Assembly (NCBI RefSeq): GCF_040760005.1
Contig: NZ_CP099760.1
Location: 3,653,501-3,717,500 of the forward strand
Reading direction: 5' to 3'
Length of the DNA stretch: 64,000 bases
From: Pseudomonas sp. stari2
GTDB lineage: Bacteria > Pseudomonadota > Gammaproteobacteria > Pseudomonadales > Pseudomonadaceae
Below the pieces are notes generated by a model that saw only the letters and a list, made by a program, of their open reading frames with translations, had not been told where the DNA came from and searched no databases. Positions 39,292-52,954 of this stretch are shown piece after piece (position 1 is the first letter of the stretch; the number at the start of each line of letters is the position of its first letter). The position numbers and the translations under genes were made by a program.

Positions 39292-40269
39292 TTATTCAAA
39301 CCACTCCTGCCGCTCATTGAACGTGCGTTGAATCAACTCAACCAAGGTCTGCACCTCCCCAACCGCCTGCGATTCACTGTTCACCGCCAGCCACACCTGC
39401 AACCGCATCGCCTCCTCAAACAACCCCGGCAACGCCACCAACCCGCGATCAAACCGGCTCATGTACATCGGCAACAACCCGATGCACGCACTGCAACGAA
39501 TCATCTCCAGCATCAGTTCATAAGACTGCATCTGCACCACGCCAGCCAAGCGCTGTTCGACCAGTTCATTCCACGGCCGGAAGCTGTCGATCTGCCGGTC
39601 ATGCTGCCATTGCACCAGCATGAAATCGGCAAGGTCGTCCGGGCTTTCGGGGCGTGCAGTTACGCGGGAGTAGCGTTTGGCAATGTGCGGCTGGTATTCC
39701 AGTTGCGCGAGGCGTTGCGGTTCGCTGGTGGCGAAGGTCGGGCCCGGATGCGGGGTTTCGCCGTGGGCGAGCCACAGCACGATGTCGGCACTGACCGCGC
39801 GCAGGGCCAGTTCGCTGTCGAGGGCGATGATTTCCAGGCGCACGCTGGCGTTGCGGCGCAGCAGTGCGATGAGGTCGCGGCCGAGGATGTCGTGCAGGAT
39901 CGATTCGGCGACGGCCAGCCTGATCAGGGGTTGCTCGATCACCGGCAGTTTGCGTTCGTGAGCCAGGGCCACCAGTTGCGCCTGCAATTGCTGACCTTCG
40001 CGGGTCAGCGTCAAGGCACTGCCCTGAAAGCTGAACAGCGCGCATTGCAGTTGCTGTTCGAGTTGCGCCAGTTGCTTGCGCAGCAGGGTCGAACGCACGT
40101 TGAGGCTGCGGGCGGCCTGCATGAAGCAGCCGCAGCGGGCGCTGACCAGAAAGTATTGCGCGATTTCGCCCTCGATCTTCGCAACCTGCGCCAGCCAGGG
40201 TTCGGCCTTTTCCTGCGGCCAGCGAAAATCGGGGCTGCCCTGTCGTCCTGCGGGTTCGGTGAATGACAT
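39292..40269 (-). CDS. LysR-type transcriptional regulator with N-terminal extension
   Basis: A 325-residue LysR protein. Its helix-turn-helix, IAQYFLVSARCGCFMQAARSLNVRSTLLRKQLAQLEQQLQCALFSF, begins only at about residue 36, after a charged 35-residue extension (MSFTEPAGRQGSPDFRWPQEK...). GSALTLTREGQQLQAQ is the linker entry and the remainder is the periplasmic-binding-protein-like effector domain, with LPVIEQPLIRLAVAESILHDIL and CIGLLPMYMSRFDRGLVALPGL. ATG 40269 was chosen because GGGAG lies 7 nt upstream. It is transcribed in the same direction as, and just downstream of, the TonB/TpsB cluster; in P. aeruginosa a LysR gene (PA0701) also borders the corresponding locus. The target genes are not known. 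Confidence 0.85.
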   Translation of the reverse strand: MSFTEPAGRQGSPDFRWPQEKAEPWLAQVAKIEGEIAQYFLVSARCGCFMQAARSLNVRSTLLRKQLAQLEQQLQCALFSFQGSALTLTREGQQLQAQLVALAHERKLPVIEQPLIRLAVAESILHDILGRDLIALLRRNASVRLEIIALDSELALRAVSADIVLWLAHGETPHPGPTFATSEPQRLAQLEYQPHIAKRYSRVTARPESPDDLADFMLVQWQHDRQIDSFRPWNELVEQRLAGVVQMQSYELMLEMIRCSACIGLLPMYMSRFDRGLVALPGLFEEAMRLQVWLAVNSESQAVGEVQTLVELIQRTFNERQEWFE

Positions 40270-40360
40270 CGATGACTCCCTGTCGATCTTTGTTTTGGTG
40301 TGCCGCAAGCCAATTTTCTGAATCCAGTGATTTCCCTGTGGGACTTCGGTGATGCTGAAA

Positions 40361-41308
40361 TCAGCGTTTTTCCTCCAGCACCTTGTTGAGTTCCGCCCCG
40401 TCGATGCTCAGGGTCGCGGTATTGAGCATGCCGTCCAGGTACGCCTGGGCGATCTGTTCCTGACGCTGGGCACGCAAGGCCTGAGTCAGTTGGTCGCGCA
40501 GCTCGTCGAGGGTCGCGGTGCGGGCCGGTTGTTGCTCGGTGAGTTTGATCACGTGAAAACCGGCGCTGCTTTGAACAGGATCGGAAACCGCGCCAACTTT
40601 CAGTCGCGCCACCGCGCCACGCACTTCCGGTACCAGTTGCTGCAATGGTTGCAGGCCGGTATCGCCGCCGCGCTCGGCCGTGAGGCGATCCTGGGAAAAC
40701 TCTTTGGCCAACGCCGCGAATTCCGCCGGAGTTGCCTGGGCTTTCTTGCTCAGATCCGCAGCCTGCTTACGCACCGCATCAAGGTTCTGCGGCTCATTCA
40801 CGCCGAGGAAAATCTGGCTGACCCGATACAGCGCTGGCGTCTGCCAATTGGCCTTGCCCGCGTCATAGGCCTGCTGCAACTCGGCGGCGCTCGGATAGTC
40901 CGCCGGCACTTTGCTGACCGACTGCAAATAGTCGCGAAACACGATCTGCTCGGTGGCCGCACGAGTCTGCCGCACCACGTCCGGACGCTGCGCCCAGCCC
41001 TGGGCGTCGGCCTGTTCCAGCACGGCCTTTTCGGCCAGGCGTGAACGTATCCAGCGCTCCAGTGCCTCACGATTGCCGCGCAATTGTTCGCGGGTCTGCG
41101 GCGGTACGGCGGCCAGCAACGCCTGCAATTCCTCCGGCGTGACCTGCTGATTGCCCAGTCGAGCCACCGCCGGCCCGGCATTCGTCGCGATCACCGGCGC
41201 CGGTTGCTGGGCGGCGACCGGGTCATTGCCCGGCCGCACCACCAGCGCCACGGCCACCACCAACAGCGCCACCGCAGCGGCGCTGATCACCATGGCTGGT
41301 TTCGTCAC
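40361..41308 (-). CDS. periplasmic parvulin-type peptidyl-prolyl isomerase
   Basis: A 315-residue PpiC/SurA-like protein. The N terminus MVISAAAVALLVVAVALVV is a membrane anchor or uncleaved signal. Residues ~50-140 form a SurA_N-like chaperone helix set (RLGNQQVTPEELQALLAAVPPQTREQLRGNREALERWIRSRLAEKAVLE), followed by a parvulin domain: YRVSQIFLGVN, FAALAKEFSQDRLTAERGGDTGLQPLQQLVPEVRGAV and PVQSSAGFHVIKLTEQQPAR. It likely helps fold the outer-membrane or secreted proteins of the neighbouring cluster. The start ATG 41308 overlaps the YbjN-family stop. Last gene of the 49423-40361 operon; the P. aeruginosa PA0699 gene is the analogue from memory. Confidence 0.88.
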   Translation of the reverse strand: MTKPAMVISAAAVALLVVAVALVVRPGNDPVAAQQPAPVIATNAGPAVARLGNQQVTPEELQALLAAVPPQTREQLRGNREALERWIRSRLAEKAVLEQADAQGWAQRPDVVRQTRAATEQIVFRDYLQSVSKVPADYPSAAELQQAYDAGKANWQTPALYRVSQIFLGVNEPQNLDAVRKQAADLSKKAQATPAEFAALAKEFSQDRLTAERGGDTGLQPLQQLVPEVRGAVARLKVGAVSDPVQSSAGFHVIKLTEQQPARTATLDELRDQLTQALRAQRQEQIAQAYLDGMLNTATLSIDGAELNKVLEEKR

Positions 41309-41772
41309 AGCGCGACTTCCTCTTGCTCAACCTTTGGAGCCTGGGCGGCAGCGGTGTTCTGGGTGAAGTCACGCAGGTAAACGATGAATTCCTGCAACAG
41401 GCGATCCCAGAGTTCCAGATTGCCGCGCAGGTAATCGCCGCTGACGCCAGCGGCCACCACCACATCCATTTCCATCACCAGAAACTCGCCCTGCAATGAC
41501 AAACGGGCAAAGCGGCGGGTCGCGTTCCACTGCTCGGCCACACCCGCCGGCAGCTCACCCTGCACGCGCAGTGCACAGCTGAAGGTGAAGTCGAGGTAGC
41601 TGCCCTGCTCCGCCACCGCCGGGTTGCCGAAACGCACCGCGTAACCGATGCCCTGACTGGCGCTGAGCAACTGGACGATGCCGTTCTGTTCGGTCTGGTT
41701 GACGCGATAACCGGCGGCTTGCAGGACTTCGGTCAGAGATTGCGGGGATACGTGGGAGATCAATTGAGTCAT
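41305..41772 (-). CDS. YbjN domain-containing protein
   Basis: A 155-residue cytoplasmic protein with the fold pattern of YbjN and type III secretion chaperone-like proteins: HVSPQSLTEVLQAAGYRVNQTEQNGIVQLLSASQGIGYAVRFGNPA, then YLDFTFSCALRVQG, WNATRRFARLSLQGEFLVMEMDVVVAAGVSGDYLRGNLELWDRLLQEFIVYL. YbjN proteins are associated with stress and surface traits; the molecular role is unknown. ATG 41772 was chosen over 41790 because GGAAG lies 7 nt upstream of it. It is coupled to the parvulin gene by a 4-nt overlap and is 29 nt downstream of the coiled-coil protein gene. Confidence 0.75.
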   Translation of the reverse strand: MTQLISHVSPQSLTEVLQAAGYRVNQTEQNGIVQLLSASQGIGYAVRFGNPAVAEQGSYLDFTFSCALRVQGELPAGVAEQWNATRRFARLSLQGEFLVMEMDVVVAAGVSGDYLRGNLELWDRLLQEFIVYLRDFTQNTAAAQAPKVEQEEVAL

Positions 41773-41801
41773 TACTTCTTCCTTGTCCATGAGTCTTTTA
41801 A

Positions 41802-42431
41802 TCAGTGCGCGATCGCGGCTTGCGGCGCATCGAATTGAGTCTTGTACAGGTCATCGCCGAAGCCCTGAGCCAGTTCATCGAACTTGACCCGGGCGCTGCC
41901 GGCGAAGGGCTGGCGGATCTTCATCACCTCGGCCACATCTATGTTTTCGTAGGCAGTTAGGATCTGCTTGGCCACGCCGTACATTTGCTGATTCTTGACC
42001 GAACATTGCTGCACTTGTGTGTCACGTTCGGCCAATTGCGCTTGAAGCTTAGACCGTTCTGCCTCTTTGGCACGGGCCAGGACCAATAGCTCTTCGTAGG
42101 CCTTCTTGAACTTGCCGGTCTGTTCGTTACTGGCCGCGACTTGCGCCTGGGCCTGGCTGTGCAGGCTTTGCTGCTGCCCGGCCAGTTGCTCGGCGAGGCC
42201 TTTGGCCTTGGCCAGTTCGGCGGTCAATTGCTTGATTTGCGCCTGGGCACCCTTGGCCTCATTCTGCGCCGCCAGTTGCGCGGCGCTGGCCTGAGCCTGC
42301 TGGCTTTGCAGGGTTTGCAGTTGCTGGGTGGTGCTGCGCAATTGCGTGCGCAGGCGTTCTTCCATGCCTTCGGCGCTCGCCCCGGTGGCGATCAACATCC
42401 CGAGTCCAAGCCATAAAAAGCGGATTTTCAT
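41802..42431 (-). CDS. exported coiled-coil protein
   Basis: A 209-residue protein with a clean signal peptide (MKIRFLWLGLGMLIATGASAEG, cleavage after ASA). Residues ~24-140 are an almost uninterrupted Gln/Ala-rich coiled coil (RTQLRSTTQQLQTLQSQQAQ, then QIKQLTAELAKAKGLAEQLA), followed by a short globular tail (MYGVAKQILTAYENIDVAEVMKIRQPFAGSARVKFDELAQGF). Conserved Cys occurs once (QQCSVKNQ). It is predicted to be periplasmic and oligomeric. I do not recognise a named family; it occupies the position of PA0697-like genes in the pdt locus. A spacer or scaffold role between ExbBD-TonB and the outer membrane is speculation from shape and neighbours. It starts 17 nt after the porin stop. Confidence 0.78.
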   Translation of the reverse strand: MKIRFLWLGLGMLIATGASAEGMEERLRTQLRSTTQQLQTLQSQQAQASAAQLAAQNEAKGAQAQIKQLTAELAKAKGLAEQLAGQQQSLHSQAQAQVAASNEQTGKFKKAYEELLVLARAKEAERSKLQAQLAERDTQVQQCSVKNQQMYGVAKQILTAYENIDVAEVMKIRQPFAGSARVKFDELAQGFGDDLYKTQFDAPQAAIAH

Positions 42432-42448
42432 AACCCTCTCCCGGCGCC

Positions 42449-44146
42449 TTAGAAGCGCGTGTTGATCTCGAGCTGCAAGACGTCGATGTCGAACGGCGCG
42501 CCATACACCGCCTCGGTGCTCATCCAGCGACCGGTGGCGTAGACGTTCTTAGCCAGACCGTAGTTGCCCCCGAGGACGTAACCCTTGGCGTTGGTGCCGC
42601 CGAGGTGGAACGACGAGTCGTTGAAGCCGTCCGGCAAGGCGTCAGGCTGGATGTACTTGTAGCCGGCGAAAAGATTCCAGTCGCCCTGCTTCTTCAGGTC
42701 CAGAGCGTTGCCCAGGGTGAACTGCACCATCCACGCATTGGCACCGCTTTCGATGTTGCCGCTGCTGTCGAGGTTGTTGACCAGTTGCCCGGCCGCACGC
42801 TTGCGCATGTCGCCTTCGTCGTAGCCGAGGTTGTGAATGTAGTTGCCCTGGCTGCGCAGTTTGAAGTCGGCAGGCAGGTCGGCGTCCCAGACCAGATTCA
42901 GGTCCAGCAGGTTGAACTCCGACGCCAGGCCAACGAATTGCGGCTGCGGCGTGGTGCTCGGGTTGAGCGGGTTCGGCGTGATGTCGCGCAGCAGGAACAC
43001 GCTGTTGCCCTTCTGCATGAACGCTGCGCGGGTGCCGTCACTGTCGCAGCCCGGCGCGCCGGCCCACGGCTCGCAGGGGCTGGAGCGCTGGCCCTGAATG
43101 TCTTCAAAGCGGTAGTAGGCCAACGCGCCTTTCAGGCGGTTGTTGCTGTTGATCGCCCACTTGGCGCCGACCTGTGCGCCGTACAGCCACTTGTTGTCGC
43201 TTTCTTCCTTGTCGAAGCCGTTGCTGGTGGTGGTGTCGCTGGTGTAATCCACCGGGAACGCACCGACGGTGCCGAACATGCCCCAATCGCGGCTGAGCTT
43301 GTGGTCGAAGATTGCCGCCACACCATCGAAGTTCAGGTCGTTGGAATACAGCATGTCGGTAGACATGAACGGGTTGGCGAAACGACCACCGGTCAGGGTC
43401 AGCTCATCCGACGGCTTCCACGTCAGGTAACCCTGATCGAGCCAGATGTCTTTCTTGGCAAAGCCGCCCCCAAGGTTCTGGGTGGTCGACACCGGGTTGT
43501 TGTCCGAGCCGGTGCCGATGCGGATGCCAGCAGTCCATTCCGGCGAAATCACCGCTTTCATGCCCAGCCGGGCGCGCAGGCGGAACAGGTTGGTACGGTC
43601 TTCGCGGGTGTTGAGCAACGGCGGCAACGCGGTGCTGCTGTTGGGGTTCACGTCGTACGGACCGTTGTTGTTGAGCTTGGCGAAGTCGACGATTTCGTTG
43701 CTGTTGCTGCCGGAGTAATAGCGCGATTCGTCACGCAGACGGATGTCGCCGTCGAAGCTGATGCGCGACGCCCAGTCCGGGAAGGTGTTGGGCGCGGCCC
43801 AGTTTTCCTGCCTGGCGGTGGCCATGACTTCAGCCTTGACCTGATCGCGGATCTGGTCGCGCACCGCGGCAGGCACGTATTGCACTCGCACATCGCCCGG
43901 CGCTGCGACCGGCCCGGCTGCCACAGCGGTAGACGCCGCAGCCTGCCTGGCCTGGGCCGCCTCATTCTGGGCCTGGGCGATCAGTGCGTCGGCCTTGTCC
44001 TGTTTCAGAATGCCCTGCTCGACCAGCAAGCGGATCAGATTGATCGTGGCGTTTTCCGAGGGCGCAGGCGCTGCCACGGCCTGACCGACCAGGGTCGCGA
44101 TGACCATGCCGACCGCCAGGGACAATCGATTCACATTGGAAATCAT
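42449..44146 (-). CDS. putative outer-membrane porin (Porin_5-like)
   Basis: A 565-residue protein with a signal peptide (MISNVNRLSLAVGMVIATLVGQAVAAP). Residues ~30-130 include a helical, Ala/Gln-rich segment (LIRLLVEQGILKQDKADALIAQAQNEAAQARQAA) and then a large barrel: SFDGDIRLRDESRYY, RLRARLGMKAVISPEWTAGIRIGTG, QGYLTWKPSDELTLTGGRFANPF, ending LQLEINTRF with a C-terminal Phe for BAM recognition. This is the layout of the putative porin family PF16930. ATG 44146 has AAGGAG 10 nt upstream; an ATG at 44167 lacks one. The two-part structure could let the helical part reach peptidoglycan. Gene 6 of the TonB/TpsB operon. Confidence 0.85.
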   Translation of the reverse strand: MISNVNRLSLAVGMVIATLVGQAVAAPAPSENATINLIRLLVEQGILKQDKADALIAQAQNEAAQARQAAASTAVAAGPVAAPGDVRVQYVPAAVRDQIRDQVKAEVMATARQENWAAPNTFPDWASRISFDGDIRLRDESRYYSGSNSNEIVDFAKLNNNGPYDVNPNSSTALPPLLNTREDRTNLFRLRARLGMKAVISPEWTAGIRIGTGSDNNPVSTTQNLGGGFAKKDIWLDQGYLTWKPSDELTLTGGRFANPFMSTDMLYSNDLNFDGVAAIFDHKLSRDWGMFGTVGAFPVDYTSDTTTSNGFDKEESDNKWLYGAQVGAKWAINSNNRLKGALAYYRFEDIQGQRSSPCEPWAGAPGCDSDGTRAAFMQKGNSVFLLRDITPNPLNPSTTPQPQFVGLASEFNLLDLNLVWDADLPADFKLRSQGNYIHNLGYDEGDMRKRAAGQLVNNLDSSGNIESGANAWMVQFTLGNALDLKKQGDWNLFAGYKYIQPDALPDGFNDSSFHLGGTNAKGYVLGGNYGLAKNVYATGRWMSTEAVYGAPFDIDVLQLEINTRF

Positions 44147-44185
44147 CTGCACACAACTCCTTTTCATACAGCTTTATGAGTTCGG

Positions 44186-44890
44186 TTAACCCGGGCGCCG
44201 CCCTTGCAGGGACATGCGCACAGGCAAGGTGATGGAGGCCGGTGGCCGTTCGCTCAGATGGGGCGCGTTACGCAACGCGGCCAGCACCTGACTGTCGATC
44301 TCTGGGTTGCCGCTGGACTTGATCAGCTCGACCCGGGTGATCTCGCCGACGCTGCTCAGCCACACATCGGCCTGCAGCGAAAACGCGAGATTGCGCAAGT
44401 CCGGGTTCTCCCGAAGCAGCTTCTGGAACGTGAACGCGAGGAACTGGCTGTACGTACCGTTGCCCACACGTCCACCACCGGCGCCCGCCATGCCGCCGCC
44501 CTTACCCGCGCCGATGTTGAAGGCGTCGTTGCCGCTCTGGGCGTCGCCGTCCATTTGCATCGGGTTGGCCAGGTCGTCCGCCGGCGATGGCGGTGCTTCT
44601 TCCTCGGGTTTCACTTCCTGTGGCTCGGGCGTCGGCTCCGGCTCGACGACTTTTTCTTCCGCCGGGGTTTCCGGCTCCGGCGGCTTTTCCGGCGGCGGAG
44701 GTGGCGGTGGCGGCAACGGAATGATCGTCGGCACCTTCGGCGCTTCACGCCGGATGCCGCTCATGTCGTTGGCCCACTGCCACAACAGGAACGCCGCAAC
44801 GGCTCCCAGCAGCAGCCCGGCGCCCCACTTCACGTAACGCAGTGGCGACTTTTTCACCGGCAAAGGCTCTATTGGCATCTGTGCAGTCAT
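44186..44890 (-). CDS. TonB-family energy transducer
   Basis: A 234-residue TonB-like protein: cytoplasmic start, one membrane helix (YVKWGAGLLLGAVAAFLLWQW), a Pro/Glu/Lys-rich periplasmic spacer (residues ~50-105, with an eight-proline run), a Gly-rich hinge (GAGKGGGMAGAGGGRVGNG), and a C-terminal TonB domain with SLQADVWLSSVGEITRVELIKSSGNPEIDSQVLAALRNAPHL. It couples ExbBD proton flow to an outer-membrane partner. The start ATG 44890 is preceded by an in-frame GTG at 44893, both immediately after the exbD stop. It is encoded with a TpsB-type transporter and a porin, and no TonB-dependent receptor gene is present in the window. Confidence 0.85.
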   Translation of the reverse strand: MTAQMPIEPLPVKKSPLRYVKWGAGLLLGAVAAFLLWQWANDMSGIRREAPKVPTIIPLPPPPPPPPEKPPEPETPAEEKVVEPEPTPEPQEVKPEEEAPPSPADDLANPMQMDGDAQSGNDAFNIGAGKGGGMAGAGGGRVGNGTYSQFLAFTFQKLLRENPDLRNLAFSLQADVWLSSVGEITRVELIKSSGNPEIDSQVLAALRNAPHLSERPPASITLPVRMSLQGRRPG

Positions 44891-44893
44891 CAC

Positions 44894-45319
44894 TCAGCCC
44901 TGCGTCGGTTTGCCGGTGACGAGACCGACTTGGGACAGTTCGAGCCGGCGCAACAGATCCAGCACTTCGATGACCTTCTGGTATTGCACCGTGGCGTCAC
45001 CGCGCACGATCACCGGGAAGTCCGGGTTCTGCGCTTTCTCGATGCGCAGGCGCTCTTCCAGCTCCGGCAGGGTCACCGGGTAGGCATCGAGGAACACCTG
45101 CCCGCCGTCGTTGACCGAAATCGCCTTGGTCTTGGCCTCGGACAGCGACACGGCAGCGCTGGCCTTGGGCAGATTGATCTGGATCCCGGAGACCTGCGCA
45201 GTGGCGGTGAGGATGAACATCACCAACACCACCATCAGCACGTCCACCAGCGGGGTGATGTTGATGCTGTCCACCGCTGCATCTTCATCATCGTCGTGGG
45301 AGGCATTTACGGACGCCAT
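44894..45319 (-). CDS. exbD: biopolymer transport protein ExbD
   Basis: A 141-residue ExbD/TolR protein. INITPLVDVLMVVLVMFILTATA near residues 20-42 is the single helix with the essential Asp (PLVD) that carries protons against ExbB. The periplasmic part (INLPKASAAVSLSEAKTKAISVNDGGQVFLD, FPVIVRGDATVQYQKVIEVLDLLRRLELSQVGLVTGK) is of normal length. The start ATG 45319 lies 11 nt after the exbB stop, and the TonB start follows the exbD stop directly. Together they form a dedicated ExbB-ExbD-TonB motor. Confidence 0.93.
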   Translation of the reverse strand: MASVNASHDDDEDAAVDSINITPLVDVLMVVLVMFILTATAQVSGIQINLPKASAAVSLSEAKTKAISVNDGGQVFLDAYPVTLPELEERLRIEKAQNPDFPVIVRGDATVQYQKVIEVLDLLRRLELSQVGLVTGKPTQG

Positions 45320-45330
45320 GTCAGTGCTCC

Positions 45331-47130
45331 TCAGGCTGGTACGGAATGGTTGACGTGATGACCGCGCTGATGCGCCGCTTCACTGGACTGGCCTTCGCCG
45401 TGCATCTCCGCCAGACGGGTGATGAACTCGTCGACGAACACACGCATGTCGGCGCTGACTTCCTTGTTACGGGTGATCAGGCGGTTGTAGCCAAACAGCG
45501 CGGGGATCGCGACGAACAGGCCCATGGCGGTGGCGAGCAAGGCAGCAGCCATACCCGGCGCAATGGCGTTGATGTTGACGTCACCGGCCATGGCCGTGCC
45601 GAGGAACACCACCATGATCCCCAGCACGGTGCCGAGCAGACCGATGTACGGGCCGCCGGCGATGGCGTTGGACAGGGTCGAGAGTTTCGAGCTCAGTTGC
45701 TGGTTTTCCCGGGTGCGCACGCCGTCCATGGAGCAGCGGATGGCTTCGATGGTCGCCGCCGAAACCGATGAGGTATCGGCGCCCTGCTCGCGGCGGGTGC
45801 GGATCTCTTTCACCGCTACCTGGTACAGGCGCCACAACGGTGAGTGCTGAAGACGCTGGGCGAGTTGCGTGTCGTCGGCGAACATTTCCAGGCGGGTACC
45901 GACCTTGGCGAACTGCACGCGGAAGTCTTCGTTGGCAGCGGTGACGCGGCTCAGGGTGCGGTTCTTGCGCAGCATGATGATCCACGACTGGAACATCATC
46001 AGCACCAGCACCGCGATAATCACCCAGGCGTCCACCGGCACCGCGTTGAGCAGGAAGCCGAGGCTGCCGAAACCGAAGCCGGACTGTTCTTCATCGACGC
46101 CATAGGCCACCAGTTTCGACTCGGCGCCCTGGGAAGTGGCGTCGGCCAGCAGCAGCGGCGCCGGACGGGCGACTTTCGACAGGCGCAGTTCGTCGATGGA
46201 GCCCACGAACGGCTGGAAAGGACCTTCGTGCAGGTCGGCGCCGATGGCCATGACCGAGTTGAACGCCGGCATCGCCTGAGCCAACGCTGCGCTTTCGCGA
46301 CCGTTGATGTACAGCGTTACTTTCGCGCCTTCGGCAGTCATTGCGACGTGCTGCCATTGGCCCGGATTCAGCGGTTGCGTGGCCACGGCGCGCTGCCCGT
46401 CGATTTCCACGAACGGCACGCCTTGATTCACACCGACCAGCAGGCTGTTGGCGCCTTCGCGGCGGGCCAGGATCAGTTGCTCGCCGTTGGCCTGATCCAG
46501 TCGCAACCAGGCACTGAAGGTGAACGCGCTGCCAGCGTTGTGCTGCAGCGACGGACTGGCCGGCAGCAGCAGCGGCTGGCCGCTGAACTGCAAGGCCCGC
46601 CCTACTACGCCGTCGATCGCGGCGCCGGTGGCGCTCTGCGCGGTGTTGCCGTAGGCGGTGGTGTCTTTCGCCGGGGTGCCGGTGACGCCATCGAAGTGAT
46701 AGAGCGCGGTGTAATTCGGATCGAATGTGAGTTGGCCGTTGCCGGTCGCCGGAGCTTTCTGGTTGCCGTAGTACATCCAGATGTCCTGACGCTGACCGCC
46801 CTCGACATTCGGCACATCGACCCAGATCAGCGCCATGCCCATCAGCGCATCGAAGCTTTCGATCTGGTGGTTGAGCACGGTCTTGTCGTCGGCGGCGACA
46901 AAGCGCAGGTCAGAGCCGTCCTCTTTGACGCCGTCAAAGGTGAAGTTGCCGGTGTGCAGGCGCACCAGCAGCGCGGTGCGGCCAAGGGCCTGATTGATCC
47001 CGGCTCCTTGTGGCGTGGTGTCGACGGCGATCTGTTTGCGGTAGTGCCAGTCGTCCTGCCACCAGGCCTGAGCCGTGGCCGGGAGCACGAAGCCCAGGCA
47101 GATCAACAACGAAAGGAATAGGCGCTGCAT
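45331..47130 (-). CDS. exbB: ExbB/MotA-type proton channel with DUF2341 and LamG domains
   Basis: A 599-residue fusion. A signal peptide (MQRLFLSLLICLGFVLPATAQA) precedes a DUF2341-like domain (~54-125, LLVRLHTGNFTFDGVKEDGSDLRF, IWMYYGN) and a concanavalin/LamG-like fold (~140-320, ALYHFDG, GSAFTFSAWLRLD, WQHVAMTAEGAKVTLYINGRE, FVGSIDELRLSK). The ExbB channel follows (~365-599) with the first helix AWVIIAVLVLMMFQSWIIML and GGPYIGLLGTVLGIMVVFLGTA plus AIAPGMAAALLATAMGLFVAIPALFGYN. Ordinary ExbB is about 240 residues, so ~350 periplasmic residues are added. The start ATG 47130 has AAGGAG 9 nt upstream; the frame is open further but overlaps the TpsB gene. The lectin-like part may bind cell-wall glycan or secreted substrate. 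Confidence 0.9.
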   Translation of the reverse strand: MQRLFLSLLICLGFVLPATAQAWWQDDWHYRKQIAVDTTPQGAGINQALGRTALLVRLHTGNFTFDGVKEDGSDLRFVAADDKTVLNHQIESFDALMGMALIWVDVPNVEGGQRQDIWMYYGNQKAPATGNGQLTFDPNYTALYHFDGVTGTPAKDTTAYGNTAQSATGAAIDGVVGRALQFSGQPLLLPASPSLQHNAGSAFTFSAWLRLDQANGEQLILARREGANSLLVGVNQGVPFVEIDGQRAVATQPLNPGQWQHVAMTAEGAKVTLYINGRESAALAQAMPAFNSVMAIGADLHEGPFQPFVGSIDELRLSKVARPAPLLLADATSQGAESKLVAYGVDEEQSGFGFGSLGFLLNAVPVDAWVIIAVLVLMMFQSWIIMLRKNRTLSRVTAANEDFRVQFAKVGTRLEMFADDTQLAQRLQHSPLWRLYQVAVKEIRTRREQGADTSSVSAATIEAIRCSMDGVRTRENQQLSSKLSTLSNAIAGGPYIGLLGTVLGIMVVFLGTAMAGDVNINAIAPGMAAALLATAMGLFVAIPALFGYNRLITRNKEVSADMRVFVDEFITRLAEMHGEGQSSEAAHQRGHHVNHSVPA

Positions 47131-47144
47131 GGAAGTGCTCCTTG

Positions 47145-48740
47145 TTAGAAAGTGGCCTGTAGGTTGAAGTGCAGGCGCGATTCCTGTTTCGAGGTGTTCG
47201 GCCCTTCGAGTAGCGGGTAGCCCCAGTCGACGCTGCCGGACAGCCATTTGCTCAGGCTGGCGCGGGTGCCGAGACCGACACTGGCCAGGGCGTAACTGGC
47301 GTCCTGGTCCGGCAGTTCGTCGCGCAGATAGAGTTGCGCGCCTTCGGCGAAGGCGTAGAAGCGCCAGTCCTGCATCCACGTGCCGGCGTACTTGGCCAGC
47401 GACGGTGTGCGGACTTCCTGGCTGAACAACACACCGTCATCGCCGGTGCGTTCGGCGGCCAGATAACCGCGTACCGAAGTCGCGCCGCCGGCAGAGAATT
47501 GTTCGTTGGAAACCAGTGGCCCCGACGCCAGCTGGAACGCGGTTTTGCTCGCGCTCTGCCAGTCGTTGTCGAAGGTCCAGGTGAAACTGGTGTCGCCCTT
47601 TAGCACGGCAAAACTCGGTTTGGCACGGTAGCGCTTGTAGTCGAATTCCTCGTCGGAGCTGCCGTAGCCGAAGATGCTGCGAGTGGCCGCAACCAGGCTC
47701 AGACCAAGGCCGAGCTGGCTCTTTTCCGTGTAGCGGTAGCCGTTGTAGGCGAAGGTGAACGGCGCATATTTCAGCGGCACCTTGTCGCTCTCGCCGGACA
47801 GGGTCAGGCGTTCGTCGAAGTCCTTGAAGTCGATGCCGGCCGACAGCGAGTTCGACCAGTTGCCGCTGGACGGGATCGTGTAGATCGCCGCTACGCCGTA
47901 GGAATGGCCCTTGCCGAGCACGTTGCTGCCGCCGATGGTGGCAACGTTACTGTCGGACTGGTAACCGGAGAACTGCACGCTCCAGCGGTCGGTCAGCGGC
48001 GCGGTGTAGGAGCCCGACCAGACCTTGGCGTTGTCGGTGTCCTGCGGCGCGGTGAAGTAGGTCAGGTTGATGCTGTGGCCGAGTTGCCAGAGGTTGTTGT
48101 AACCGAGGCTGGTGACGGCGCGCAGTTTTTCGGTGTCGGCGCTGTAGTCGTTGTTCAGACCGACGCTGGCGGTCCACGGGTTCTGGTCTTCGACCTGCAG
48201 ATCCACGTCCATGGTGCCGGGGCGCTGACCTTCGCGCACCAGCGGCATCACCTGCCGGCCCGGGGTCTTGTTCAGTTGCGCCAGTTCGCCCTGGACCTTG
48301 GCGAAGTCCGGCACTTGGCCTTCCTTCAGCGCCGGGACGTTGTCGCGGATGTCCAGCGGCGAATAGTGTTTGGCGCCAACCACCCGGACCCGGCCGACCT
48401 TGGTTTCGCTGACTTGCAGGTAGACGATGCCGTCGGCTACGGCCTGCTCCGGCAGTTCGACGAACACCGATTGGTAGCCGCGTTCCTGATAGACCTTCTG
48501 CAAGGCGTCCCGCGCACCTTCGATGTCGCTCAGGGCTTTTTGCGGGCCGAGGAACGGGTACACCGCTTCTTCGATCGCCCGGGCATCGAGCACGGTGTTG
48601 CCGCGCACGAAGTATTCGTTGACGTCCACCAGACGCTGCGCACCTGCGTTTGCGGCCTCCTCGGCGAACGCCGGCTGCACGCCGGCCGTCACCAGCAGCC
48701 AGCCCCACAGCGCCAGCCGTGACGTGAAAATCTGCTCCAC
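47145..48740 (-). CDS. pdtB: TpsB/ShlB-type outer-membrane transporter, PdtB-like
   Basis: A 531-residue Omp85-superfamily two-partner secretion transporter. The signal peptide (EQIFTSRLALWGWLLVTAGVQPAFAEE) is followed by two POTRA domains (VNEYFVRGNTVLDARAIEEAVYPFLGPQKALSDIEGARDALQKVYQERGYQSVFVELPEQ; GRVRVVGAKHYSPLDIRDNVPALKEGQVPDFAKVQGELAQLNKTPGRQVMPL) and a 16-strand barrel with the VRGY motif (GGATSVRGYLAAERTGDDG) and terminal Phe (LHFNLQATF). GTG 48740 is preferred because AGGGGG precedes it closely and the signal peptide starts there; ATG 48779 would add 13 residues. It should export a TpsA exoprotein, yet none is encoded nearby. It resembles PdtB (PA0692) by neighbourhood. Confidence 0.88.
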   Translation of the reverse strand: MEQIFTSRLALWGWLLVTAGVQPAFAEEAANAGAQRLVDVNEYFVRGNTVLDARAIEEAVYPFLGPQKALSDIEGARDALQKVYQERGYQSVFVELPEQAVADGIVYLQVSETKVGRVRVVGAKHYSPLDIRDNVPALKEGQVPDFAKVQGELAQLNKTPGRQVMPLVREGQRPGTMDVDLQVEDQNPWTASVGLNNDYSADTEKLRAVTSLGYNNLWQLGHSINLTYFTAPQDTDNAKVWSGSYTAPLTDRWSVQFSGYQSDSNVATIGGSNVLGKGHSYGVAAIYTIPSSGNWSNSLSAGIDFKDFDERLTLSGESDKVPLKYAPFTFAYNGYRYTEKSQLGLGLSLVAATRSIFGYGSSDEEFDYKRYRAKPSFAVLKGDTSFTWTFDNDWQSASKTAFQLASGPLVSNEQFSAGGATSVRGYLAAERTGDDGVLFSQEVRTPSLAKYAGTWMQDWRFYAFAEGAQLYLRDELPDQDASYALASVGLGTRASLSKWLSGSVDWGYPLLEGPNTSKQESRLHFNLQATF

Positions 48741-48811
48741 ACTACCCCCTGAAATTCGCGATGACCTGTTGGCGCTCATGCGCCTTGCGTGTGCATCAAT
48801 GACTGGCGTTG

Positions 48812-49423
48812 TTAATTGCTGACGTGCGTGGCCCCGGTGTGCTTGCTCAGCCAGGTGTGCAACAGCGCGAAGTTCAACGAGAACTCGGGCATTTGCAGCA
48901 GCGCGCCGCAGAACACTTCACCGATGATTTTCTGGATGAGCTGCACCGCACGCGGCTCGTTGAGCAGCGTGGCGATGTCGCGACTGAGGACGTTGAAGCT
49001 CCAGACTTTCTGGTTCAGGCCCAGGCCGACGAACCAGCGGAACAGCAGGTTGTAATTGAGCTGTTCGTAGAGCTGCTGCTCGCTGGGCACCGAATACAGC
49101 AGTTGCAGGAGCAGGATGTGCATGACCGTTTGCGCCGGGATCAGCATGCCGGGCTGGGCGTTGAGCTCGTGCAGGAGATCGGCGTGGGCGTCGAACAGGT
49201 CGTCGATCTGCGGGCGCAGCAGCACCAGCGAATGTCCCGGCGGAATGTAGCTGGAGACCTCTTTCAAGGCGCCCTGCCAGTCATCCTGCGACACGATCCA
49301 GACCCACGGCGCGCCGTAGCGATACACCGAAACCGGCTTCTTGCGCGCGGCTTCGACGATCTTCGACAGGCGTTGATCGAGTTCCTGCATGCCCACTTTC
49401 GAGTAGCGTTCCATAGTCCCCAT
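48812..49423 (-). CDS. Phd-like/InsH N-terminal-domain fusion protein
   Basis: A 203-residue protein. Residues 5-55 (ERYSKVGMQELDQRLSKIVEAARKKPVSVYRYGAPWVWIVSQDDW) follow the Phd/YefM antitoxin fold pattern. Residues ~95-175 (PAQTVMHILLLQLLYSVPSEQQLYEQLNYNLLFRWFVGLGLN, then FNVLSRDIATLL) match the N-terminal DNA-binding domain of IS5-type InsH transposases (DUF772). No DDE catalytic domain follows and the protein ends at 203, so it cannot transpose by itself. ATG 49423 has GGGAG 7 nt upstream. It is the first gene of the TpsB/ExbB/TonB operon, as PA0691 is in P. aeruginosa from memory. A domesticated DNA-binding regulator of the cluster is the likeliest reading; inference. Confidence 0.72.
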   Translation of the reverse strand: MGTMERYSKVGMQELDQRLSKIVEAARKKPVSVYRYGAPWVWIVSQDDWQGALKEVSSYIPPGHSLVLLRPQIDDLFDAHADLLHELNAQPGMLIPAQTVMHILLLQLLYSVPSEQQLYEQLNYNLLFRWFVGLGLNQKVWSFNVLSRDIATLLNEPRAVQLIQKIIGEVFCGALLQMPEFSLNFALLHTWLSKHTGATHVSN

Positions 49424-49527
49424 TGCCTCACTCCCGGCGTCCCGCCTCGGCTTGTGAAAAGCGCCCTGTTGGGCCCCTCAAGCGCGTTACATAGGCATGA
49501 CCGGACTGGCGATGTGCTACCGAACTT

Positions 49528-49550
49528 TTGTCATAAAAGCTTCATTACAG
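49528..49550 (-). promoter_or_regulatory. Pho-box-like direct repeat upstream of the TpsB/TonB operon
   Basis: On the minus strand, 49550-49533 reads CTGTAAT-GAAG-CTTTTAT, matching 13 of 18 positions of the PhoB consensus (CTGTCAT-4 nt-CTGTCAT). The overlapping plus-strand reading TTGTCAT-AAAA-GCTTCAT (49528-49545) matches 14 of 18 but points away from any gene. The site lies 110 nt before ATG 49423. A clear -10 box at PhoB spacing was not found. Confidence 0.45.
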
Positions 49551-49628
49551 AATTTGATCGGGAAACGGCGGGCATAAAAAACCTTTGGAAACTGGCTGGT
49601 TCCCACAGGTTTTCGTCGTGATTTAACG

Positions 49629-50912
49629 TCAGGAATAAACCGGCCAGGTATCGACGATCTTGCCGCCGCGCACCGCCAGCAGATCACCGAATTGCAGGAG
49701 AACGGCTTCAGTCTGGGTCGGCCGCAGGAACACTTGATCCTCCACCGTCAGCCCCACGGCATTCGAACCGTTGACCATCTCCTGATTCGAACTGCGCCCG
49801 TAGACGCCATTGCTCTGCAGCCCCGGCGGCGATTCGAATTCGGCCATCCAGTTGCCGCCGTAGATGAAAAAGGTCTGGCGCTGGTTGGCGTCCCACCAAG
49901 AGAACAATTTCGATTTGTCGTCCAGCGCCGGGATGTTAACGGCGCCAGTGCTTTTCAACACCGGCGTGGCGATGTACGTGGCAGGCACATGCTCCACCAG
50001 TGACGGCAGATCGTAGTGCGTCGGCTTGAGCATCGCCGTGCCCACCGAGACTTCGCTGCTCAGGGTTTCGTTTTCATGCATGCGATAACTCGGGCTGCCG
50101 GCGGTGTTCAGGCACAAGCCGTCATGCCACAGCGCCGGATATCGCTGCCGGGTGAAGTCGACGCAGCGCTGATAAATCACCATCACCTTGGCAAACAGTT
50201 CCTCGGGCGAGCCGAGAATTCCCGGCACGCCCATGCCCACGAACGGGTCATAGCCCATGAACCCGGCGAATTCCAGGTGCTGAGGATTGGCGGCGATCAG
50301 CGCGAGCATCTGCCCGAGCACGTTCAGATCACTGACCCCGCCCCGGTGCAGGCCGACGTCCAGTTCGATGTTGATCCGCATTCGGGTGCCCAGTCCCTGG
50401 GCCAGCGCGAGGTATTGCTGCAGGCGTTCGGGGTTGTCGATCAGCCATTGCAGTTGTTTCGCCGGGTCGAACGGGCCTTTGTGGGTCTGGTAGAACAGCT
50501 CGGCAGAACGGACCGGCAACGGCTTGCCGAGCAGGATGTCGGACTGCGGGTAAACCTGTGCATCGTGATTGAGAAACGGCTGATGAAACGACATCAGTCG
50601 CTGCGTCCCCGCCCTTTGAGCGATGTAGCTGAGCAGCCCCGGCGACGGCAGCGATTTCTCCACCAGTCGCAGGTGCTTGCCGCTGCGCTTCACCGAACCC
50701 ATCACCACGTCGATGTTGTGGTCGAGGCGTTCCAGATCGATCAACAACACCGGGCGCATCGGGCCTTTGGTCTTGAGCTCGTTGTTCAGCGCCCGGAAAT
50801 ATTCACTGTAAGGCCCGCCGCGATCCCCCGGCCGCAGCCATGCGCCAACGCCCACCAGCAAGGCGCCGACACCCAAGGTGCCAAGCACAAAATTGCGTCG
50901 ATTGACCGCCAT
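49629..50912 (-). CDS. Tat-type PLP enzyme, DSD1/alanine racemase N-terminal family
   Basis: A 427-residue fold-type III PLP enzyme. It starts MAVNRRNFVLGTLGVGALLVGVGAWL, a twin-arginine signal, so the folded holoenzyme should be exported or membrane-anchored. MRPVLLIDLERLDHNIDVVMGSV is the first barrel strand/helix, HLRLVEKSLPSPGLL near residue 86 holds the probable PLP Lys, INIELDVGLHRGGV and FAGFMGYDPFVGMG follow, and the C-terminal beta domain ends with VEDQVFLRPTQTEAVLLQFGDLLAVRGGKIVDTWPVYS, including the metal-binding-like end of D-threonine aldolases and D-serine dehydratases. The substrate is unknown, possibly a D-amino or beta-hydroxy-amino acid. The start overlaps the FAD oxidase stop (TGATG), so it is coupled to it. 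Confidence 0.82.
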   Translation of the reverse strand: MAVNRRNFVLGTLGVGALLVGVGAWLRPGDRGGPYSEYFRALNNELKTKGPMRPVLLIDLERLDHNIDVVMGSVKRSGKHLRLVEKSLPSPGLLSYIAQRAGTQRLMSFHQPFLNHDAQVYPQSDILLGKPLPVRSAELFYQTHKGPFDPAKQLQWLIDNPERLQQYLALAQGLGTRMRINIELDVGLHRGGVSDLNVLGQMLALIAANPQHLEFAGFMGYDPFVGMGVPGILGSPEELFAKVMVIYQRCVDFTRQRYPALWHDGLCLNTAGSPSYRMHENETLSSEVSVGTAMLKPTHYDLPSLVEHVPATYIATPVLKSTGAVNIPALDDKSKLFSWWDANQRQTFFIYGGNWMAEFESPPGLQSNGVYGRSSNQEMVNGSNAVGLTVEDQVFLRPTQTEAVLLQFGDLLAVRGGKIVDTWPVYS

Positions 50913-52306
50913 CAGCTCACCCCCAGAATCGATGCCAGATGCCCGTTAAGAAACTTGCCGCTCGGGTCCAGCGCCTGGCGTACCTGAATGAATTCCTGCC
51001 AGCGCGGGTACAACGTCTGCAACGTGCGCGCGTTGAGCGTGTGCAACTTGCCCCAGTGCGGGCGGCCGTTGTACTTCCAGAAGATCGGCTCGACGGCGGC
51101 GAAGAAGTTGTGATGGTCCATCTGGTAATGCTGGTGGACCGAGATCGAACAACTATCGCGCCCCTCGAACATGCTCAGCGGAATGTCGTCAGCCTTGACG
51201 TAGCGATACTCGATGGGAAACCAGGTGCGCAGGTCCTTGTCGCGGATCAGCTTGAGAATCTCGCGCAGGCACGCCGGGCCGTGTTCGGCGGGCACCGAAT
51301 ATTCCATTTCGTTGAAACGCACGGTGCGCACGTTGGCGTAGATGTCGAACGAGTCGCCCACCCGATCCTCGAAACTCGCCAGATGCCGCAGGCTGTTGAG
51401 CAGCGAACTGCGCAGGCCCGGGAAATCGCTGCCGTACTTGTCGATCTTCTCGATCAGGGTCACGAACTCGTTGCCGCCCTCCTCTTCGGGCGGGATCGGT
51501 GGCGTGGCCGGGTCGGTGGTTTCGTTGAGAGCGATGGACAAGGCGTAGTCGGAATGGGTGACGACGAGCATTTCCCAGTGCTGGTTTTCGCTCGTGTTCT
51601 TGTCGATGTCTTCCAGCAGCTCTTCGGTCTTGGCGATCCACTGGCGTTCGCGCAGGCGGTAGGCCGGGCGGTTCTGCAGGCGGATTTTGGTTGCCACGCC
51701 CAGCGCGCCGAGGGACACGCGAGCCGCGTTGAATACGTCGGGATGACGCTGACTGTCACAATCCAGCACCTCGCCGCTGGCGGTCACCAGTTGCATGCCG
51801 CAGACGTGGGCGGAATAGGACTGGAAGGTTTTGCCGGTGCCGTGAGTCGAGGTGGAAATCGCTCCGGCGAGGGTCTGGTAGTCGATGTCGGCCATGTTCT
51901 GCAGGGCCTGGCCGACGTCCTTGAGCGGCGTTCCCATGCGCGACATCGGCGTGCCGGCGGCGAATTCGGCTTGCAGGGTTTTAGGGTCATGGTCGAGCAG
52001 ACCATTGAAGTAGCTCAGGGACAGCAACGTGCCGTCGGTGGGCACCAGTGCGCTGAAGGAATGCGCCGAGCCGACCGGACGAATCTTGCCCGGTGCCTGT
52101 TGAATCACCGCCGTCAGTTCATCCAGATTCTTCGGCGCCACCCGCGCCGCCGGCAGGCAGCTCTGCCCGCCCGACCAGTTGCGCCAGGGAATCAGCCGTG
52201 GCGCGCGCATCAACTGGCCCAGCGCCGGATTGGAAGCCAGCGCGCTGAACGCCCCGACGATACTTGCCCGTTGCAACAACTGCCGGCGTGTCAGATCTAT
52301 CGGCAT
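50912..52306 (-). CDS. Tat-exported FAD oxidase, D-arabinono-1,4-lactone oxidase family
   Basis: A 464-residue VAO-type flavoprotein. MPIDLTRRQLLQRASIVGAFSALASNPALG is a twin-arginine signal. The FAD domain has RVAPKNLDELTAVIQQAPGKIRPVGSAHSFSALVPTDG and GAISTSTHGTG, and the ALO-type C-terminal domain has WFPIEYRYVKADDIPLS, SISVHQHYQMDH and YNGRPHWGKLHTL, ending FLNGHLASIL. Relatives oxidise aldonolactones or sugar alcohols at C1/C2 and pass electrons to oxygen or a cytochrome. It lies 10 nt after a lipoprotein cytochrome c gene, which suggests the cytochrome is the acceptor. The stop overlaps the PLP enzyme start by one base. Location: periplasmic face; substrate unknown. Confidence 0.88.
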   Translation of the reverse strand: MPIDLTRRQLLQRASIVGAFSALASNPALGQLMRAPRLIPWRNWSGGQSCLPAARVAPKNLDELTAVIQQAPGKIRPVGSAHSFSALVPTDGTLLSLSYFNGLLDHDPKTLQAEFAAGTPMSRMGTPLKDVGQALQNMADIDYQTLAGAISTSTHGTGKTFQSYSAHVCGMQLVTASGEVLDCDSQRHPDVFNAARVSLGALGVATKIRLQNRPAYRLRERQWIAKTEELLEDIDKNTSENQHWEMLVVTHSDYALSIALNETTDPATPPIPPEEEGGNEFVTLIEKIDKYGSDFPGLRSSLLNSLRHLASFEDRVGDSFDIYANVRTVRFNEMEYSVPAEHGPACLREILKLIRDKDLRTWFPIEYRYVKADDIPLSMFEGRDSCSISVHQHYQMDHHNFFAAVEPIFWKYNGRPHWGKLHTLNARTLQTLYPRWQEFIQVRQALDPSGKFLNGHLASILGVS

Positions 52307-52316
52307 GCCAGGATCC

Positions 52317-52670
52317 TTATTGTGGGAGCGGCTGGTCGGCCATGAAGCCGATCAACTGAAGGAATTGTTCTTCCGAGCATTCGACGCACTGGCCCATCGG
52401 CGGCATACCGTTGTAGCCGTTGATGGCGTGGTCGAGCAGCGTGTCGGCGCCCTGCTGGATGCGCGGCTCCCAGGCCTTGCGGTCGCCGGTCAGCGGCGCA
52501 TTCGCGGCGGGGTTGGCGTGACAGAGCTGGCAGCTGTTGGCGTAGATCTGCGCCAGCGCCGGGTCTTTGGGAATGGCGTTGTTGGTGCTGGCCGGGGGTT
52601 TGGCGTCTTCGCCGCAGCCTGACAGCGTCAGGAACAATGGCAGCAGTAAAGTGAATCGGCTTGCCCGCAT
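52317..52670 (-). CDS. lipoprotein cytochrome c, C5 type
   Basis: A 117-residue lipoprotein. The signal MRASRFTLLLPLFLTLSGC ends with the acylated Cys. YANSCQLCHANPAANAPLTGD carries the single CxxCH heme site, and GYNGMPPMGQCVECSEEQFLQLIGFM near the C terminus has the Met ligand region (GMPPMG) and a CVEC pair as in cytochrome c5-like proteins. ATG 52670 has GAGG 6 nt upstream; an earlier ATG would add eight residues before the signal. First gene of a three-gene operon with the Tat-exported FAD oxidase and PLP enzyme; it can carry electrons from the flavoprotein to the respiratory chain. Inference rests on co-transcription. Confidence 0.88.
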   Translation of the reverse strand: MRASRFTLLLPLFLTLSGCGEDAKPPASTNNAIPKDPALAQIYANSCQLCHANPAANAPLTGDRKAWEPRIQQGADTLLDHAINGYNGMPPMGQCVECSEEQFLQLIGFMADQPLPQ

Positions 52671-52954
52671 AACAATCCTCGCGTGTGGCATCACTTATTG
52701 TTGTGATCACACCTTAAGGCAGCGATGCCAGGACGTTGAGGGCATTGCGGGCCAGCGAAGGGGGCATCCGGGGCCAGTCGGGTTCCCTCAGGAGTCGGGC
52801 ACTCCTGTAGCGTTCGCGGTGTCGCTACCCCTCTGCCCTGCCCCTCTGCCATGCGCCTTTGCGTGACATTCGCGTGACATTTGCGGGTTTAAATTTCGGC
52901 GCATTCAGGCGTATAACCGTTACAGACTTTTTCAATGACACGCGGGGTAGCGAC

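Follow-up and report, generated by a model that had tools for sequence, protein, structure and literature searches.

The operon at positions 40361-49423 on the minus strand of the window (a stretch of 64,000 nucleotides from Pseudomonas sp. stari2, NZ_CP099760.1, positions 3,653,501 to 3,717,500) is probably one half of a PdtAB-type two-partner secretion system: it encodes the transporter and a dedicated ExbB-ExbD-TonB motor, which would supply force in the pathway of the secreted TpsA protein PdtA. That the two halves of the system are separated on the chromosome, with a remote PdtA as the cargo of the TpsB transporter PdtB, is close to certain, and the action of the motor in the TpsA pathway is, taken by itself, moderately favoured.

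The remote cargo PdtA

Two TPS-domain genes were found in the genome of the window (6.31 Mb, single contig), one of them cognate to the operon and the other with a TpsB of its own. PdtA is encoded at G000:C1:3028522-3041025 as one open frame of 4167 codons, 672 kb from the operon and on the opposite strand; the TPS domain spans residues 152-381 and DUF3739 spans residues 3956-4066. The first-pass annotation, made from the sequence of the window, had described the operon as TpsA-less, which is right in that no TpsA gene adjoins it; its suggestion that the locus may serve a remote TpsA agrees with the finding of PdtA.

The genes for GspG, GspD, GspE and GspF of a type II secretion system (T2SS) and a PstS/DING-like gene (by eye) lie before pdtA on the same strand, and a VreA-like gene (STN; TonB_2 below the cut-off) together with a sigma-factor gene lies about 21 kb before it. 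This neighbourhood fits the P. aeruginosa series vreA, vreI, hxc, lapA, pdtA (PMC2729926, PMC7035377). Since the operon of the window corresponds to PA0691 onward, the locus is, on gene content, broken between the equivalents of PA0690 and PA0691. The other TPS-domain gene belongs to a compact second system (G000:C1:4418332-4424623, L003) with a TpsA of 1489 amino acids at 4418332-4422801, and no motor genes were seen within the stretch read; this TpsA is an unlikely cargo of the operon because its own TpsB adjoins it.

Co-occurrence of the halves and the common promoter motif

The distribution of the system was determined in 199 Pseudomonas genomes, with an identity of at least 70% as the threshold for a PdtB orthologue (the next match falls to 32%). 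A PdtB orthologue was present in 62 of the 199 genomes, any TpsB match being present in 158, mostly as weak matches to other TpsBs, and the PdtA N terminus and the lectin-ExbB were likewise present in 62 each. The PdtA and PdtB genome sets were identical, and the lectin-ExbB list was also the same 62 (compared by eye). Counted as present were two genomes with a PdtA frame interrupted near its start (G034, G108) and two with one stop in the PdtB match (G134, G170). The pdtA frame of G139 is interrupted near the C terminus; the broken frames of these five genomes may reflect sequencing error or decay.

The P. aeruginosa pdtA and phdA promoters, which have a pho box and share -35/-10 elements, have been mapped, and PhoB- and VreI-dependent expression was shown (PMC4971064). 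In the genome of the window, the sequence ahead of phd and that ahead of the remote pdtA each match the 27-base pattern ATGAAGYTTNNNTGACANNNGTTCGGT, which was built from those two sites, so that the fit there is no test of it. No third site was found in the 6.3 Mb of this genome at up to 3 mismatches. With at most 1 mismatch, the pattern was present in 60 of the 62 system-bearing Pseudomonas genomes and in 0 of the 137 others (sets compared by eye), and the reversed control pattern gave 0 matches in all 199. Of 162 relatives found, the 80 best are used here as named loci, and in 79 of these the motif was located within 1.2 kb before tpsB; one named locus, P. fluorescens PfAR1 (L273), holds a further motif site at about 1.7 kb.

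Features of the operon

The features were assigned as follows (positions in the window), and the nine minus-strand genes with a LysR-type gene beyond them were confirmed as first annotated.

49519..49545, minus strand: promoter motif (putative pho box plus VreI-type element) upstream of phd, G000:C1:3703019-3703045(-)
48812..49423, minus strand: phdA-like gene, PA0691 by position; Phd-like N terminus below the cut-off, and DUF772 (Pfam)
47145..48779, minus strand: pdtB, TpsB outer-membrane transporter (start 48779 or 48746); POTRA_2 and ShlB above the cut-off, second POTRA marginal (Pfam)
45331..47130, minus strand: lectin-ExbB, 599 amino acids from start 47130; DUF2341, LamG, then MotA_ExbB proton-channel domain (above the cut-off), signal peptide by eye
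44894..45319, minus strand: ExbD (exbD2-like); Pfam ExbD above the cut-off
44186..44893, minus strand: TonB (tonB4-like); TonB_2 C-terminal domain above the cut-off, hydrophobic N-terminal stretch and polyproline by eye
42449..44167, minus strand: Porin_5 outer-membrane porin (PA0696-like); Pfam Porin_5, E 2.8e-208
41802..42431, minus strand: coiled-coil protein (PA0697-like), without a Pfam family match
41305..41790, minus strand: YbjN-family protein (PA0698-like; Pfam)
40361..41308, minus strand: PpiC-type prolyl isomerase, a parvulin (PA0699-like; Pfam)
39292..40308, minus strand: LysR-type gene downstream of the operon, behind it in 60 of 61 loci, L129 being truncated at the contig end

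The correspondence to PA0691-PA0701 that had been proposed for the operon holds in functions and order (PMC7035377), and T2SS, VreA-like and sigma-factor genes stand at pdtA. As in the P. aeruginosa PdtAB system (PA0690-PA0701, vreAIR, hxc; PMC2729926, PMC4971064, PMC7035377), phdA, pdtB, exbB2, exbD2, tonB4, the porin, PA0697, PA0698, PpiC and LysR genes follow each other, T2SS and VreA-/VreI-like genes lie on the pdtA side, and pdtA and phdA carry the same promoter type; unlike in P. aeruginosa, pdtA is not directly upstream of phdA.

The loci of 61 of the 62 system-bearing Pseudomonas genomes were read. The order phdA-pdtB-exbB-exbD-tonB-porin-coiled coil-ybjN-ppiC was complete in the window and in 58 of the 61 loci, a conservation of the nine-gene set that is far beyond chance. 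The three incomplete loci are L129, truncated at the contig end, and L090 (G172) and L094 (G107), both without phd. In the latter two the promoter motif lies about 100-130 bp before tpsB and pdtB is present; because the phdA-like gene is missing there despite the motif and pdtB, phdA seems dispensable for the rest of the operon. The nearest named PdtB relative among the best 80 was that of P. bananamidigenes (98% identity), from which the host is probably a Pseudomonas of the P. fluorescens/koreensis kind.

Recurrent separation of pdtA from pdtB

In the 61 loci, pdtA and pdtB were adjacent in 20 and not adjacent in 34, and 7 were left undecidable by a contig end; the 34 comprised 6 on the same strand within 70 kb, 18 far apart and 10 on another contig (4.5 kb of other DNA upstream of tpsB). 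On a quick PdtB tree, the adjacent and non-adjacent states required 7 changes with the undecidable rows omitted and 8 with all rows, 5 of them forced by well-supported branches, such changes not separating gain from loss of adjacency. The supported clade of the window held 0 adjacent cases among 19. Of the 80 named loci, 23 have an adjacent PdtA, 48 have none within an upstream flank of 4-10 kb, and 9 are undecidable. Splitting of the system on the chromosome is therefore recurrent, and the P. aeruginosa order together with the spread of adjacent cases across the tree suggests that adjacency is the older state.

In the window, the gap upstream of phd is 205 nt (49424-49628) and an unrelated operon follows, as had been noted; the genes at 49629-52694 encode an alanine-racemase/D-threonine-aldolase-type enzyme and two proteins assigned by eye, one FAD-linked and lactone-oxidase-like, the other small and cytochrome-c-like. 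An alanine-racemase/D-threonine-aldolase-type gene precedes the operon in 30 of the 80 named loci, without PdtA there.

Separation as such is in print. The tpsB-exbBD cluster of Burkholderia, Rhodopseudomonas and Janthinobacterium is separate from tpsA genes that come with PUMA3 clusters, and there are several tpsAs to one tpsB, as found here (PMC2729926). The P. aeruginosa system, its promoters, the linked TonB genes and tpsA apart from tpsB-exbBD in few genomes are thus already described (PMC2729926 for the last); whereas the split tpsA was given there for few genomes, the present counts cover samples of 199 and 398 genomes and link it to DUF3739 and the lectin-ExbB.

Association of the motor with DUF3739 TpsAs across Pseudomonadota

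A sample of 398 Pseudomonadota genomes was searched with profiles at cut-offs of E 1e-30 (PdtB) and E 1e-50 (lectin-ExbB). The lectin-ExbB profile matched in 14 of the 398 genomes, and DUF3739 TpsAs were found in the identical 14 and in 0 of 14 control genomes. The PdtB profile matched in 17, 13 of them at 337 bits or more and 4 at 108-255 bits; all 13 strong genomes are within the 14, and the four weak ones (G486, G402, G234, G555) are in neither the DUF3739 nor the lectin-ExbB list. In the fourteenth genome, G477, the exbB gene is cut by the contig start and is followed by tonB and the porin. The 14 comprise 2 Pseudomonas genomes and others from 10 further genera. Three lectin-ExbB matches, those in G217 and G551 and one in G351, span one stop, and open frames of 698, 578 and 563 codons, respectively, were found there.

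The genes tpsB-exbB-exbD-tonB-porin were clustered in 9 of the 16 non-Pseudomonas loci read, with an extra open reading frame between exbD and tonB in G395. DUF3739 TpsAs numbered 20 in the 14 genomes (21 rows, two of which are pieces of one frame): three each in G570 and G395, two each in G477 and G351 and one in each of the others; the TPS domain was above the cut-off in 19 of the 19 tested. Because G570 and G395 hold a single TpsB match and a single lectin-ExbB match each despite three TpsAs, a single TpsB and motor may serve several TpsAs. G351 (2.9 Mb) has, besides its two TpsAs, two different tpsB-exbB-exbD-tonB-porin cassettes (L160, L162).

A TonB motor beside a TpsB had at first been called unusual, and it proves to be a systematic association in this sample (the same 14 of 398 genomes). 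The gene content suggests a motor-linked subtype of two-partner secretion. Classical two-partner secretion (FhaB/FhaC, CdiA/CdiB), which resembles the present system in the TPS domain of the cargo and in the POTRA domains and ShlB-type barrel of the transporter, has been described as operating with neither a hydrolysable energy source nor a gradient (PMC5422565). A precedent for TonB-dependent export is provided by Oar/PopC of Myxococcus xanthus, in which a protein is exported across the outer membrane dependent on ExbB/ExbD/TonB (PMC6434023). Unlike Oar, a TonB-dependent receptor that has a TonB box, PdtB is a TpsB in which none was found. In the literature searched, with subscription papers mostly outside the search, the papers listed included none that connects DUF3739 with both the lectin-ExbB and TpsB or puts the motor to a test, and none containing the word DUF3739.

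Candidate contact points of TonB

The N-terminal plug helix H1 of TpsB is not part of every definition. About 12 residues precede POTRA1 in PdtB (signal cleavage by eye) as compared with 54 in the CdiB chain, which aligns at residue 55; unlike CdiB, PdtB therefore seems to leave no room for H1 and to be without a plug helix. The AlphaFold model of PdtB reached a predicted local distance difference test (pLDDT) value of only 62. The missing helix was rejected as a hallmark of motor-driven TpsBs, the four weak relatives without lectin-ExbB being equally short.

A TonB-box profile was built from 40-residue pieces of 24 receptors of the same genome; it is rough, its sites lying at varying distances from the plug. 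The best windows in PdtB, the porin, the coiled-coil protein and the parvulin were equalled by 65-98% of shuffles. The best window in PdtA was at residue 853 (11.9 bits), like weak receptor sites.

In the TpsAs, DUF3739 is followed by a linker rich in Ala and Ser and by a strand-like motif (FTVQVLSFG, IIVEVLGFG), the motif being found in 38 of 40 TpsAs by a regular expression that was fitted by eye to the same sequences and that also matches 18 of 8000 shuffled tails. Both TpsAs without a match belong to G351. In PdtA the motif occupies residues 4108-4116 (L007:12844-12870), within a stretch of pLDDT below 50. A second VQVLGAG-like motif lies nearer the end in many DUF3739 TpsAs. The tail motif resembles a TonB box by eye but is not supported as a canonical one by the 24-receptor profile, which does not recognise it. 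In a model of the last 330 residues of PdtA (pLDDT 73), strands dominate up to about residue 220, and a helix and the tail beyond them are of low confidence; a Foldseek search with this model found nothing at E <=0.001. These results do not support DUF3739 as a globular plug.

Proposed pathway and its alternatives

In the proposed pathway, phosphate starvation would turn on both halves through PhoB and a VreI-type sigma factor, PdtA would pass the inner membrane by Sec, and the prolyl isomerase of the operon would help to keep it export-competent. PdtA would then be threaded through PdtB, and the ExbB-ExbD-TonB unit would give a proton-driven force at the outer membrane for the export, retention or release step of DUF3739-type TpsAs.

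Several points weigh against this pathway. We know of no experiment on this motor. The exbB2-exbD2-tonB4 set is termed a still uncharacterised putative TonB system (PMC7035377). Neither PdtB nor the porin held a TonB-box window beating shuffles with the 24-receptor profile, and the conserved PdtA tail motif ranks only 743rd to 1096th of 4159 by it. The porin is co-conserved in the cassettes and may be the client of the motor. No tonB gene was called by the script in G217, the motor of G461 lies on a different contig from TpsB and the porin, and the promoter motif was missed in two system-bearing genomes, G102 and G174. The sampled genomes are related and thus not independent observations.

The best surviving alternative is that the motor energises the Porin_5 protein of the operon for the uptake of phosphorus-containing nutrients, with PdtB co-resident as a phosphate-starvation gene only. 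It is rather unlikely. The porin follows tonB in every cassette read with a tonB gene and adjoins tpsB in G461, and the T2SS genes and PstS/DING-like protein at the pdtA locus fit phosphate scavenging. Set against this, Pfam shows no plug domain in the porin, in which, as said, no convincing TonB box was found either, the lectin-ExbB accompanies DUF3739 TpsAs in 14 of 14 genomes, and a TpsA gene stands between tpsB and exbB in G217 and G551. Because 3 of 5 Pseudomonas genomes without the system have weaker Porin_5 relatives, the family as such does not need the motor; for the same reason Porin_5 was rejected as a strict system marker. A second, weaker Porin_5 relative is also present in the window's genome outside the operon (G000:C1:1823788-1824762, within a 504-codon frame).

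Improbable is a role in signalling, by which the motor TonB and the TonB-like C-terminal domain of VreA would sense the export state of TpsA without transporting it. VreA-like genes were called in 9 of the 16 stretches around non-Pseudomonas DUF3739 TpsA genes and in the window's genome; of nine such proteins tested, STN was found in 9 and TonB_2 in 8 (some below the cut-off), and six matched the motor-TonB profile (E 3e-3 to 3e-13). It has been suggested that the VreA C-terminal domain may bind outer-membrane partners (PMC2729926). In the other direction, 7 of the 16 stretches were without a VreA-like gene by the motor-TonB profile, and VreA shows no polyproline linker by eye, so drive by ExbBD is unlikely. 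VreA-like genes (STN plus TonB-like C-terminal domain) stand beside TpsA genes in L006:12471-13217, L206, L207, L208, L210, L211, L212, L214, L215, L216 and L159; for G570, G395 and G477 such a gene was called in the vicinity of every TpsA gene.

That the operon is a relic, or was repurposed for another export after loss of its TpsA as the first-pass annotation had considered, is barely credible: the clade of 19 without an adjacent TpsA gene would fit it, but an open TpsA frame elsewhere in the genome with matched presence (62 of 62 genomes, the very outcome named beforehand as speaking against repurposing), the common promoter motif and the conserved operon lead to its rejection.

A wider extension of the proposed pathway is speculative and distinctly unlikely as a whole: a proton-driven class of two-partner secretion in Pseudomonadota, in which a plugless TpsB would export DUF3739 giants only with lectin-ExbB/ExbD/TonB force, one motor would serve several unlinked TpsAs, and the tail motif would be a handle for both the motor TonB and VreA, coupling adhesin export and expression. 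The PdtA tail as the common ligand of these two TonB-like domains is a guess.

Two-partner secretion serves as the textbook example of outer-membrane transport without an energy source, and the motor-cargo match in 14 of 398 genomes makes the need for a proton-driven force directly testable. At the level of gene content, the locus offers an uncommonly clean genomic case for a putative motor-linked subtype. The association offers a partner for DUF3739 and for the DUF2341-type ExbBs, the extra domain of which has no assigned function (PMC12505986). A large secretion system can split repeatedly and keep one promoter type, and a TpsB operon without a neighbouring TpsA is not necessarily an orphan.

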